Below, in pieces: positions 21,722 through 30,197 of a DNA stretch of 64,000 nucleotides. The position numbers were made by a program, and so were the translations under genes. The notes below the pieces were generated by a model. The model was given only the letters and a program-made list of their open reading frames with translations. It was not told the origin of the DNA and made no database searches. Position 1 is the stretch's first letter, and each line of letters opens with the position of its first letter. The DNA is from Gloeobacter violaceus PCC 7421 (lineage in GTDB: Bacteria > Cyanobacteriota > Cyanobacteriia > Gloeobacterales > Gloeobacteraceae): assembly GCF_000011385.1 (NCBI RefSeq), contig NC_005125.1, positions 3,410,001 to 3,474,000 of the forward strand, given 5' to 3'.

Positions 21722-22000
21722 ATGCAGCAAATCAACATTAAAAGCGACAAAGCCTATCGAATGGCGAACGAACTGAGCCGCTTGACTGGGGAAAGCGTGA
21801 CTCAGGCGATCACCACAGCCATTGAAGAGCGGCTCGAAAAGATTCGTGCCCAGACGCGCAGCCGCCGCGAGGGTATCGCCGAACGACTGCTTGCCCTTGG
21901 CACAAGGAGCGTGGCTCTTCCCATCCTTGACCCGCGCGCGCCCGACGAGATCCTCTACGACGAGAACGGATTGCCGAAAAACCCGATGGCGGATCGATGA
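21722..22000 (+). CDS. vapB: Type II antitoxin, VapB/Rv0623-like
   Basis: 92 residues. The N-terminal ~45 residues (INIKSDKAYRMANELSRLTGESVTQAITTAIEERL) form a short strand then helices, as in the ribbon-helix-helix PSK-type antitoxins paired with PIN toxins. The C-terminal half (DEILYDENGLP) is the expected toxin-binding tail. The stop overlaps the toxin start by 4 bp (ATGA), the standard coupled arrangement. Autoregulation of its own promoter is expected for the family. Confidence 0.88.
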   Translation: MQQINIKSDKAYRMANELSRLTGESVTQAITTAIEERLEKIRAQTRSRREGIAERLLALGTRSVALPILDPRAPDEILYDENGLPKNPMADR

Positions 22001-22374
22001 TCGCGATCGATACTTCCGCCATCGTCGCCATTCTCCTTGGTGAGCCCGAAGCGGAGCGCTTCGCACGCGCCATCGAGCAGGACGAGGAACCGCTGCTTTC
22101 AGCGGCTTCCCTGGTTGAGCTTTTCCTCGCGATGAAGCACAAGCAGGGGTCGGCGTCCGTGCCCTTGATCGAGCAGTTCCTGGCCACGGGCGGGATCAGC
22201 GTCTGTTCTGTCACCCCCGAGCAAGCCCGCCGCGCTCAGGAAGCCGCCTATCGCTTCGGCGTGCTGAATTTTGGCGATGTGTTTTCTTATGCGCTCGCCA
22301 AGGAGAGGGGCATTGGTCTTCTGTTCAAAGGTACCGACTTCGCGGTGACCGATCTCACCGCAGCACCCTTCTAG
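21997..22374 (+). CDS. vapC: PIN-domain toxin VapC
   Basis: 125 residues. The PIN acidic quartet is visible: Asp5 (MIAIDTSAIVAIL), Glu41 (SAASLVELFLA), Asp94 (LNFGDVFSYALA) and Asp114 (FKGTDF), so the metal-dependent ribonuclease site looks intact. Targets of VapC enzymes are usually tRNA or rRNA. Its TAG stop is the first base triplet of a repeat-family end that also follows other genes in this window. Confidence 0.92.
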   Translation: MIAIDTSAIVAILLGEPEAERFARAIEQDEEPLLSAASLVELFLAMKHKQGSASVPLIEQFLATGGISVCSVTPEQARRAQEAAYRFGVLNFGDVFSYALAKERGIGLLFKGTDFAVTDLTAAPF

Positions 22375-27357: not shown

Positions 27358-27680
27358 TGTCTGGCGGTTGGCTTTGCACGAAAGTCTGTGGAGCGAGAGG
27401 CGGAACCCCCTTCGGGTTCCCCTCTCGCGCTCTCCAACCTCCCCGCGTCGAGGGGGTGCCACCCCCCCGACACCCCCCGGACTTCACGGCACGGTGGGAA
27501 CGAGACTGTGTGGGTGGGATGGGTTTATTCTTTTAGGGCCTGCACGACGCGTGTCGACTGCGGCGATGGGGCCGGCTGGTCGCTGGGCGGCACAGGTGTT
27601 GGGAAGGGTTCAGACAAACTGGTTTTCTCGACCGTCGAGAAAACCTGGTGGTTCAAGGTTTTTGCTTGACACATCCTCTA
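27346..27680 (-). repeat. Dispersed repeat element, copy 1 (inverted relative to copy 2)
   Basis: The segment 27361-27490 matches, in inverse orientation and at near identity, 52499-52640. It contains a GC-rich palindrome (GAGGCGGAACCCCCTTCGGG with its pairing arm), a CCTCCCCGCGTCGAGGGGG block and GTGCCACCCCCCCGACACC. Its other end reads TAGAGGATGTGTCAAGC on the minus strand, matching TAGAGTAGGTGTCAGG of copy 2. A perfect 12-bp palindrome at 27621-27645 is private to this copy. The element fills the gap between two convergent genes and supplies the stop codon of both (TGA 27355, TAG 27680). Confidence 0.8.
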
Positions 27681-28613
27681 GGGCACCGGCTCTTCTTCCG
27701 TAGGCGGTGGCTCGGGAATATCGCTGCTGTAGTTGCCCTCGCGACCGGTATAGCGCTGTTGCCACTTGCCGTCGTAGCGGCTGTAGATGCCGTAGACCCA
27801 GCGGTCGAAGCGGGTTTCGCGCACAATCAGATCGTCGTTGCCGTCGCCGTTGAGATCGACCACCGCGAGGGGACCGTAGATCGTGCTTGTCTCGGGATTG
27901 CCGAAGCTTGCCAGGCTCAACTGGGGCTGCCAGGTGGTCTGGCCTTTGTCGGTGACCGGTTCGGCCACCAACAGCAGGTTCACCAGCCGCTTGAAGGTGG
28001 CCCCCGCCTGTCTGAGGGAAAACGTGTGCCGGTAGAGCGCCACCACCGTCTCCGGCCGTCCCGGCATCACCGCCGCCGCCGCCCACACCCGAGACGTTTT
28101 GGTAACCAGATCGTCCGGCAGGCCCTGTTTGGCAAGGGCTGCCCGGGCGAGGCTGTCGACAATGGCGAGGGTTTCTTCGCTTGGGGCTTTGCGCGGGCGG
28201 ACCTTCAGCGGCTGGTCGGTCGCTACGACTAGATCCAGTTCCGGTAGGGGCAGCAGGCGCTGCTCACTCTGCAGGGGCGCTTCGAGGCTGCCGTACAGCG
28301 AAGGCACTTTATCCGGCAGCACCGCCTTCGCCTCGCCCAGCGGTTCATCCTGTCGCCATAAAAAGTAACGATTGTTTTTCTTGAAGTGATTCTCGCCAAA
28401 GAATTTGAAATCCGTATCGGAGGGCAGGGGGGGGTTGCGAAACTGTTCGCCGCGAATCTGCGCTACAAATTCCAGAGCCGGGTAAGGGGCGAGTTCGCCG
28501 CTGTTGTCGACCGCCGTGCGCTCCTGCAGCGCAAATACCACACCCGGGGCGGCCCATAGGGGCGACACCCAACTCAACAGTCCGAACGCGGACCATGCGA
28601 ACCAACTGCGCAT
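27678..28613 (-). CDS. Secreted protein with EF-hand/FG-GAP-like calcium loop
   Basis: 311 residues from ATG 28613; a GTG at 28637 is also in frame. A signal peptide covers residues 1-21 (FAWSAFGLLSWVSPLWA-A). The central part is unassigned. Near residue 265 the segment VVDLNGDGNDDLIVRE is a DxNxDGxxD calcium loop of the FG-GAP or EF-hand-like type. The tail is Pro/Glu-rich (PEPPPTEEEPVP) and its TAG stop is contributed by the adjacent repeat. Likely extracytoplasmic. Function unknown. Confidence 0.65.
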   Translation of the reverse strand: MRSWFAWSAFGLLSWVSPLWAAPGVVFALQERTAVDNSGELAPYPALEFVAQIRGEQFRNPPLPSDTDFKFFGENHFKKNNRYFLWRQDEPLGEAKAVLPDKVPSLYGSLEAPLQSEQRLLPLPELDLVVATDQPLKVRPRKAPSEETLAIVDSLARAALAKQGLPDDLVTKTSRVWAAAAVMPGRPETVVALYRHTFSLRQAGATFKRLVNLLLVAEPVTDKGQTTWQPQLSLASFGNPETSTIYGPLAVVDLNGDGNDDLIVRETRFDRWVYGIYSRYDGKWQQRYTGREGNYSSDIPEPPPTEEEPVP

Positions 28614-28717
28614 TCGAACGATGGTTTTTTCTGGCACGATGCGTTTTTCCTGACCTGGGCGGGACGTCGCCCGATTTTGCCGACTTCTCAGGCTACCATT
28701 TCCGGTACCTTGGCCGG

Positions 28718-28960
28718 CTGTGGAATACCCTGTGGAAAAACCGCGAACCTCAGTGGAAAAACCCCGGGTTTTTCCACTGAGTATTTATACCCTGTGGAAA
28801 AAGGAGAGGCTTTCCACAGGGTATTCCACAGGGACCAAAGTCGGGGATCGCTCACTGGAGGCGGATTTGGGCTTCGATTTCCACTTTTCCCCAGGCCCTA
28901 CTACTACTAGATCAGTAAATTAATAAAAGAGTAGAAGAATAGGCATCTGGGGAAAAAGGG
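28718..28960 (+). other. oriC: Probable chromosomal replication origin (oriC) upstream of dnaN
   Basis: Seven DnaA-box-like nonamers (TTTTCCACA type, as used in cyanobacteria) lie at 28719-28727, 28731-28739, 28752-28760, 28770-28778, 28793-28801, 28810-28818 and 28822-28830. The 21 bp at 28718-28738 recur exactly inverted at 28811-28831, and 28751-28779 is a near-perfect palindrome around CCCGGG. An AT-rich stretch with repeated CTA/TAG triplets (28899-28960) follows, a candidate unwinding region with DnaA-trio-like repeats. Placement just upstream of dnaN agrees with the known Synechococcus elongatus origin. No open frame occupies the region. Confidence 0.8.
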
Positions 28961-29066
28961 TCTACCCGTAGATGAGATCGGTCGGTTTGGACTGGCTGGA
29001 ACGCTAAACGTGGACCTGTCGGGCCGGTGCTATACTCGCTGCCATGGCCGGGTGTGGTGCGCTGCG

Positions 29067-30197
29067 ATGAAGATTGTTTGTTCACAAGCCGTGTTGAATC
29101 AGAACCTATCGCTGGTGGGCCGGGCGGTGCCCTCGCGGCCGACGCACCCGATTCTGGCCAATATTTTGCTGGAGGCGGACGGTCGGTCGGGCACGGTAAC
29201 CCTCACCGGCTTCGACCTCGATCTGGGTATCGACACGCGTTTTGCAGCCGAGCAGGTCGAAGGGAGCGGACGCACGACGCTGCCGGCGCGGGTGCTCAGC
29301 GACATCATCTCAAGGCTGCCCAACGAATCGCTGACGATGGAGGTGAGCGAGGACAACGCCATCAGCCTCGTCTGCGGCAGCAGTCAGTACCAGGTGCAGG
29401 GGGCGAGTGCCGAGGAATTTCCGAAGTTGCCCGAACTGCCCGACAGTGCCGCTCACGTTCTGCCGGTGAGCGAGTTTCTGGAGGGCGTCCAGCGCAGCTT
29501 GTTCGCCGCTTCCACTGACGAGAGTAAGCAGATTCTCAACGGTGTCTCGGTGAAAGCCCTCAAGGAGGGCATGGAGTTCGTGGCCACCGACGCCCATCGC
29601 CTGTCGTTCTACCGCACGGACTTTACGCTGCCCGAGGCGGGTACGCAGGCCATCGCCGCGGTGCTGCCGGTGCGCTCGGTGCGCGAACTCGAAAAAATCC
29701 TGGGGGCGCAGGCGGGCGACAGCGTCGAGGTGCGCTTCGACGAGAAGCAAATGATCTTCCAGTTTCCCAACCAGACGCTCACCACCAGGCTTTTGGGTGG
29801 CCGCTACCCGGACTACCAGCAGCTACTGCCCAAACAGTTCCAACAGACCGCCGACATGGAGCGCAAGCGGCTCATCGGCTGCCTGGAGCGGATCGCCGTG
29901 TTAGCAGACCAGAAAAACCACATCGTCAAGCTCGACTTTGCCCCGAGCGAGCACCTGATGACCGTCTCGGTGGACGCTCCCGACGTCGGCCGCGGTCGAG
30001 AGAGCGTGCCGGTGCAGTACAGCGGTCAGGACTTCTCGGTGGCCTTTAACGTGCGCTACTTACTCGAAGGGCTCAAGGCGATGGACGCGACCGATGTGTC
30101 GTTTTGCCTCAACGGAGCGAGCGATCCGGCGGTGCTCAAGCCTGTGGGCGATGGGAATTATCAGTATCTGATCATGCCGGTGAGTATTCGGGGGTGA
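29067..30197 (+). CDS. dnaN: DNA polymerase III beta sliding clamp
   Basis: 376 residues. Three clamp domains can be followed from MKIVCSQAVLNQNLSLVGRAVPSRPTHPILANILLEA through SVRELEKILG to the end YLIMPVSIRG, which is the conserved C-terminal clamp motif. The clamp tethers replicative polymerase to DNA. The ATG at 29067 begins the conserved MKIVCSQ; an upstream GTG at 29010 would add an unlike N-terminus. It sits next to the probable oriC and converges on ychF with only 4 bp between stops. Confidence 0.97.
   Translation: MKIVCSQAVLNQNLSLVGRAVPSRPTHPILANILLEADGRSGTVTLTGFDLDLGIDTRFAAEQVEGSGRTTLPARVLSDIISRLPNESLTMEVSEDNAISLVCGSSQYQVQGASAEEFPKLPELPDSAAHVLPVSEFLEGVQRSLFAASTDESKQILNGVSVKALKEGMEFVATDAHRLSFYRTDFTLPEAGTQAIAAVLPVRSVRELEKILGAQAGDSVEVRFDEKQMIFQFPNQTLTTRLLGGRYPDYQQLLPKQFQQTADMERKRLIGCLERIAVLADQKNHIVKLDFAPSEHLMTVSVDAPDVGRGRESVPVQYSGQDFSVAFNVRYLLEGLKAMDATDVSFCLNGASDPAVLKPVGDGNYQYLIMPVSIRG

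Follow-up and report, generated by a model that had tools for sequence, protein, structure and literature searches.

The window analysed here is the whole 64,000-nucleotide stretch covering positions 3,410,001 to 3,474,000 of the single 4,659,019-bp contig of Gloeobacter violaceus PCC 7421, with a GC content of 59.6%. It contains an intergenic region bounded by two divergent genes, one at 27678-28637 on the minus strand and dnaN at 29067-30197 on the plus strand. The features of this region are given below in window coordinates; distances are counted from the first base of the DnaA-trios (trio start), and BUS stands for basal unwinding system.

27678-28637, minus strand: divergent neighbour gene with no assigned function; one FG-GAP repeat, exactly at the Pfam cut-off
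28718-28738: left outer arm, exact inverted copy of 28811-28831
28719-28727, minus strand: DnaA-box-like site TATTCCACA, -179 from the trio start
28731-28739, minus strand: exact DnaA box TTTTCCACA, -167
28749-28781: perfect palindrome of 33 bp, two 16-bp arms with 1 bp between them
28752-28760, minus strand: DnaA-box-like site TTTTCCACT, -146, inside the central palindrome
28770-28778, plus strand: DnaA-box-like site TTTTCCACT, -128, inside the central palindrome
28793-28801, minus strand: exact DnaA box TTTTCCACA, -105, conserved reversed place
28810-28818, plus strand: DnaA-box-like site CTTTCCACA, -88, conserved place
28811-28831: right outer arm, exact inverted copy of 28718-28738
28822-28830, plus strand: DnaA-box-like site TATTCCACA, -76, final box ahead of the spacer
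28831-28876: spacer between the array and the BUS
28844-28851, plus strand: GGGATCGC, within the spacer
28877-28885, plus strand: BUS box 1, ATTTCCACT, weak, two mismatches
28885-28893, plus strand: BUS box 2, TTTTCCCCA, -13, one mismatch
28894-28897: GC link GGCC between BUS box 2 and the trios
28898-28909, minus strand: four DnaA-trios, 3'-GAT-5' on the bottom strand, CTACTACTACTA on the top strand
28898-28942: AT-rich stretch, predicted to unwind, with CTA/TAG triplets
28925-28942, plus strand: purine-rich trio-like triplets (TAG and GAA), mirror image of the trios; mixed statistical support
28948-28956, minus strand: far-side inverted DnaA-box-like site TTTTCCCCA, +50
29029-29037, plus strand: GCTATACTC, probable dnaN -10 element
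29067-30197, plus strand: dnaN, DNA polymerase III beta subunit (TIGR00663 and three Pfam domains)

The initial annotation had described seven DnaA-box-like sites within 112 bp upstream of dnaN, and our scan allowing one mismatch recovered all seven at 28719-28830: two are exact copies of TTTTCCACA (28731 and 28793), and five carry one mismatch. The 4.659-Mb genome holds 690 one-mismatch TTTTCCACA sites, while a reversed-pattern control gives 577; 0.017 one-mismatch boxes are expected in 112 bp (Poisson P for seven or more, approximately 7e-17). In 80 sampled tiles of 20 kb (1.6 of 4.66 Mb), no other stretch exceeds 3 sites per 300 bp, compared with 9 at this locus; the genome outside these tiles was scanned only for exact TTTTCCACA and for a loose BUS pattern. 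Exact TTTTCCACA occurs 26 times genome-wide, with two close pairs besides the cluster. Based on the 26 exact and 690 one-mismatch sites, a chance origin of the seven-box cluster is therefore excluded. The two other pairs, both inverted, are located at 999185-999239 and 2032949-2032970, and may possibly be DnaA-controlled promoters or titration sites. Searches of a plasmid collection returned no match, nothing in Rfam came near a gathering score, and for GCTATACTC (29029-29037), which is identical in all six Gloeobacteraceae, a promoter scan found no full sigma-70 site. Elsewhere in the window, adjacent genes for an Rv0623-like antitoxin and a PIN-domain protein (21722-22374) resemble a VapBC pair.

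On the top strand, the cluster is closely followed by ATTTCCACT and TTTTCCCCA, which share one base, and then by GGCC, CTACTACTACTA and AT-rich DNA. The published BUS consists of tandem boxes, a GC link and trios of the form 3'-GAT-5' on the bottom strand, and its rule is a DnaA box at most 16 bp from at least three trios (PMC8287927); in G. violaceus, TTTTCCCCA, with its one mismatch, is separated by 4 bp from four trios. In a BUS the upstream box of the tandem pair is expected to be nearer the consensus; it is the weaker one in G. violaceus (two mismatches versus one) and is an exact TTTTCCACA in genome G002. An AT-rich stretch with repeated TAG/CTA triplets reminiscent of DnaA-trios had been noticed previously, and this reading holds: 28898-28942 has 27% GC over 45 bp, a composition at least equalled in AT content by only 212 of the 63,956 45-mers in the window, and the four trios occupy its first 12 bp. 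The trios, which are identical in 6/6 Gloeobacteraceae, are the core of the site, and were undersold in the initial annotation.

We found a BUS in all nine Gloeobacterales genomes examined, each match being read individually, and in seven of them it lies 151-227 bp upstream of dnaN. The loose pattern used has a chance background, its reversed control matching in 25 of 39 genomes, with no match in G000 to G003 or G005. In G007 the BUS is at 2,796,216, away from dnaN at 1,541,883; in G008 the BUS (G008:C33:6504) and dnaN are on different contigs. Genome G002 also carries a second dnaN-like gene (G002:C1:1792470-1793576), 51% identical at the protein level to G. violaceus DnaN. We tentatively take G002, G003 and G007 to be G. 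kilaueensis, G. morelensis and Anthocerotibacter panamensis, respectively.

The arrangement of the boxes extends well beyond this order. From 153 scanned cyanobacterial loci (several per genome) we retained 65 distinct origins, aligned on the first trio base, that were not duplicates, had sufficient flanking sequence and contained, besides a BUS-like motif, three or more boxes within 320 bp; some are closely related, and 54 and 35 were left after thinning. Forward boxes are found at -13 (57/65), at -22/-21 (57/65), at -77 to -74 (62/65) and at -88 to -86 (55/65), and a reversed box at -106 to -104 (52/65); selection on the BUS favours the -13 and -22 places and does not directly favour the other three. 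The opposite orientation was seen at none of the five places in any of the 65 origins. All five places are filled in 36 origins and at least four in 57, G. violaceus filling four. Additional reversed boxes gather near -136, -157, -178 and -199, that is, 21 bp apart. The starts of the last array box and the first BUS box are 52-55 bp apart in 65/65 origins when the best box is sought at 45-62 bp. The length of the spacer is thus constant and its sequence is not: by eye we found no phylum-wide spacer motif, and GGGATCGC is common to Gloeobacteraceae only, being identical in all six. To our knowledge, no protein is known to bind it. This geometry suggests that a helically phased DnaA assembly may join the array and the BUS. 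Among the best 80 of 571 named dnaN loci, 43 have a BUS by pattern, and some of the remainder have variant trios. At two loci (L141 and L150), approximately 240-250 bp upstream of dnaN, the tandem DnaA boxes are kept and a palindrome centred on GCGATCGC stands in place of the trios; the origin may there have lost its unwinding part or exchanged it for another. In the open-access literature searched, we found no description of the five-place geometry.

Based on these sequence features, we consider the region to be very probably (approximately 0.87) the chromosomal oriC of G. violaceus, DnaA-dependent and equipped with a BUS. Several findings support the earlier proposal of a probable oriC next to dnaN: the box cluster, the four-trio BUS, a box orientation and spacing conserved in Gloeobacterales and other cyanobacteria, and a full-length DnaA gene. 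The latter is located at 1.584 Mb (TIGR00362, 522.7 bits versus a cut-off of 343.9) and encodes the Pfam N-terminal, ATPase and C-terminal, box-binding, domains. Array, fixed-length spacer, tandem boxes, GC link, four trios and AT-rich stretch follow one another toward dnaN, an order and a spacing that recur in many cyanobacteria. In S. elongatus the chromosome replicates from oriC with DnaA (PMC7198777), and the BUS of this species has been opened in vitro by its DnaA (PMC8287927). In G. violaceus, DnaA would bind the array at the forward boxes (-88 and -76) and the reversed box (-105). Through the fixed distance of 52-55 bp, or about five turns of the helix, this complex would be able to touch the DnaA bound at the tandem boxes of the BUS; from there DnaA would extend along the bottom-strand trios and open the AT-rich stretch, where the helicase would be loaded. 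Against this reading stand the weakness of both BUS boxes in G. violaceus (two and one mismatches), the lack of a significant GC skew switch, gene orientation and AT skew, which point elsewhere, a gene order that preserves no distance from the origin relative to G003, and the report that other cyanobacteria possessing dnaA can do without it (PMC7198777). We found no experiments on Gloeobacter in the literature searched.

An extension of the oriC reading is suggested by the far side of the AT-rich stretch. An inverted box lies at +49/+50 in 6/6 Gloeobacteraceae, as TTTTCCCCA in four, as TTATCCCCA in one and as an exact TTTTCCACA in one. It is the best conserved 9-column stretch from the trios to the dnaN -10 element, with 7 of 9 columns invariant versus 16 of 114 in the remaining stretch up to that element (Fisher P = 1e-4). 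Three of the six species are near-identical, leaving about four independent lineages. The box is absent in G006, G007 and G008, and an exact-type far-side inverted box was found in just one of 59 origins outside the family (L114). Between the trios and this box, triplets on the top strand run inward as a mirror image of the trios. Beyond the left trios of 54 origins, top-strand TAG outnumbers CTA by 75 to 28, and within the interval of 15-34 bp by 62 to 10 (P = 0.025 for TAG relative to shuffles). Runs of TAR/GAR containing TAG occur in 13 of the 54 origins versus 2.3 in shuffles and 0 on the other strand, and in 5 of 32 versus 1.1 when Gloeobacteraceae are excluded. TARTAR runs give a weaker signal (P = 0.034 in the 54 origins; a non-significant 0.23 and 0.35 in thinned sets), and runs with a middle A, the lenient published trio rule, occur there at chance and are uninformative. 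All these triplet measures were picked after seeing the data.

In Gloeobacteraceae, the AT-rich stretch might be entered from both ends: the left BUS would bring DnaA onto the bottom strand, and the inverted box at 28948-28956 with its inward trio-like triplets would bring DnaA onto the top strand, each strand having its own DnaA platform and helicase. The conservation of the box above its surroundings and the excess of TAG favour such an arrangement; the small number of lineages, the restriction of the box to the family, the post hoc triplet measures and the lack of a second tandem box on the far side weigh against it, and we regard it as speculative and rather unlikely, but testable. We found no mirror-image BUS in the open-access literature, judged by titles and abstract openings. 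In B. subtilis, a signal opposite the trios has been proposed to direct a second helicase via DnaD, and the same work asks how bacteria without DnaD manage the second helicase (Winterhalter et al. 2023, PMC10201434); dual helicase loading is also termed not understood by the BUS authors (Pelliciari et al. 2023, PMC10721633). In both systems, the region to be unwound would hold a further signal specific to one strand. Nevertheless, the B. subtilis DnaD recognition element is complementary to the trios and recognised by DnaD (PMC10201434), whereas the candidate signal of Gloeobacteraceae lies beyond the trios and includes a DnaA-type box. The far-end box may be put forward, with considerable reserve, as a candidate answer to dual helicase loading in this family.

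A different explanation is that what keeps the site in place is control by DnaA over the transcription of dnaN and the neighbouring gene, the chromosome being copied from several other places without DnaA. DnaA-independent replication has been reported for Synechocystis 6803, Nostoc 7120 and Synechococcus 7002, in a study that links ploidy with the disappearance of regular skew (Ohbayashi et al. 2020, PMC7198777). The near-absence of skew in G. violaceus would suit this explanation: its GC skew index of 0.006 was the lowest among the bacteria surveyed in one study (PMC2684130), and its value of 0.004 was equal lowest in the table of another (PMC2099444). In our sample of 80 tiles of 20 kb (34% of the genome), none of the models with two equal arms, whether for GC, AT or gene strand, exceeded the 95% point of shuffles. 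A GC-skew inversion had been suggested as a check on the origin. The sign does change from negative to positive near the cluster, ranking 1-4 of 80 with 5-10 tiles per side and 11-15 with 15-20 tiles per side; the significance did not follow, as the change was never beyond shuffles and there was no significant two-arm signal. With free ends, and with no shuffle comparison of their own, GC fits are best from 3.58 or 3.41 Mb (r = 0.29 and 0.27), near the cluster, while fits starting away from it are the best for AT skew (2.94 Mb, r = 0.36) and for gene strand (1.19 Mb). Gene orientation at the cluster (r = -0.07 to -0.14) is, if anything, against an origin. Because G. violaceus is reported as lowest or equal lowest in skew, and the sampled skew has no significant two-arm pattern, taking a missing GC skew as a refutation would reject the origin wrongly; skew cannot decide the matter.

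Scrambled gene order also fits the transcriptional explanation. A comparison with G003 (27 anchors in 40 tiles, first 3.2 of 4.9 Mb of G003) revealed no conserved distance from the origin, the mean difference in relative origin distance being 0.20, where by our own reckoning about 0.17 is expected for random places. Gene order is scrambled between the two genomes, though the anchors are 77-98% identical, mostly at least 90%. The skew and gene-order results are compatible with a single origin but do not speak for one, and they lower our confidence. On the other side, transcriptional control needs no trios at a fixed distance, yet the trios are invariant in 6/6 Gloeobacteraceae, which argues that selection still acts on unwinding. 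Additionally, no BUS was found upstream of dnaN in 9 loci of Nostocales, 5 of Crocosphaera/Cyanothece and 3 of Moorena, although it could lie elsewhere in those genomes. We consider the purely transcriptional role improbable.

The inverted symmetry of the array had been described as strong and unusual for an origin. The outer 21-bp arms (28718-28738 and 28811-28831) are indeed exact inverted copies, and a central palindrome is present, which is larger and more regular than the 29-bp near-palindrome first described: 28749-28781 spans 33 bp with perfect 16-bp arms. The symmetry stands as an observation, but its exactness is particular to G. violaceus and was absent from the other eight Gloeobacterales examined. 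The arms match at 21/21 positions in G. violaceus, 18/21 in G001 and G003 (whose DnaN proteins are 98% identical to that of G. violaceus), 17/21 in G002 and 11-14/21 in the other five. In G001, G002 and G003 the differences fall between or just beside the boxes, and in G001 and G003 they are on the left arm. What is conserved is the box orientation and spacing, not the exact symmetry. Since the arms of the congeners are near but inexact copies, differing between or beside the boxes, the exact match looks most simply like a recent change in G. violaceus, in which one arm was copied onto the other, perhaps by template switching between inverted boxes. The exact arms are not needed for the proposed mechanism.

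The palindromes could instead drive the origin themselves, by extruding as hairpins on which DnaA acts, on the model of A-site type, DnaA-dependent priming on single strands. The single-strand fold of the G. violaceus region is strong (z = -9.7 in one run and -11.0 in another), and the central stem is preserved in G001 by one paired change. Nevertheless, the fold weakens from -11.0 to -7.8 and -7.1 in the two congeners G001 and G003 and to between -4.1 and -6.4 in the other six Gloeobacterales, with 56 further origins averaging -3.7, and G002, G004 and G005 lack an intact stem while the box places persist, making a structure-driven origin very improbable. That the central palindrome is a mere transcription terminator and the boxes incidental can hardly be credited, for the one terminator-like match at 28749-28781 compares with an average of 0.6 in shuffles, and the flanking genes diverge (28637 on the minus strand, 29067 on the plus strand), so no transcript should end there.

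In comparison with known systems, the proposed oriC resembles the cyanobacterial origins beside dnaN, such as that of S. elongatus and the Ori-Finder predictions (e.g., Cyanothece ATCC 51142, PMC4674748), in its intergenic position before dnaN, its TTTTCCACA boxes and its AT-rich stretch. Such dnaN-side predictions cover 68 cyanobacterial species, Gloeobacter not being named in the main text (PMC4674748); the place itself is thus of a known kind. G. violaceus differs from these origins in its extra convergent box pair at -146/-128, its palindromic arms, its far-side inverted box, a dnaA gene 1.85 Mb away and hardly any GC skew. The same set of box places is found in genome G038, all five being filled there and four in G. 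violaceus. We tentatively take G038 to be Synechococcus elongatus PCC 6301. The tandem boxes, short GC link, 3'-GAT-5' trios and AT-rich stretch, oriented toward dnaN, correspond to the bacterial BUS (PMC8287927), from which G. violaceus differs in the weakness of both boxes and Gloeobacteraceae in the added inverted far-end box. Together, these comparisons point to what is probably a working oriC, whose dnaN-side place and BUS type were already known and which carries family-specific additions; the shared box geometry and the far-side box are new relative to the initial annotation.

Cyanobacterial origins, including those that, like the ones of G007 and G008, are not next to dnaN, can be sought with a simple template made of the places at -13, -22, -75, -87 and, reversed, -105. 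The far-side box, with its conservation, is relevant to the question of how a single origin loads two helicases and, if the two-sided arrangement is true, it would represent a DNA-encoded way of loading two helicases on opposite strands. Gloeobacter is the deepest branch of the cyanobacteria. The G. violaceus chromosome is reported to show hardly any strand bias, the kind of compositional signal by which origins are usually located, yet its trio module is invariant and its boxes are spaced as in distant cyanobacteria. The absence of skew and the absence of DnaA-oriC use, which are often treated together, thereby become separable ideas, and the question of their relation is made testable in this deepest branch.
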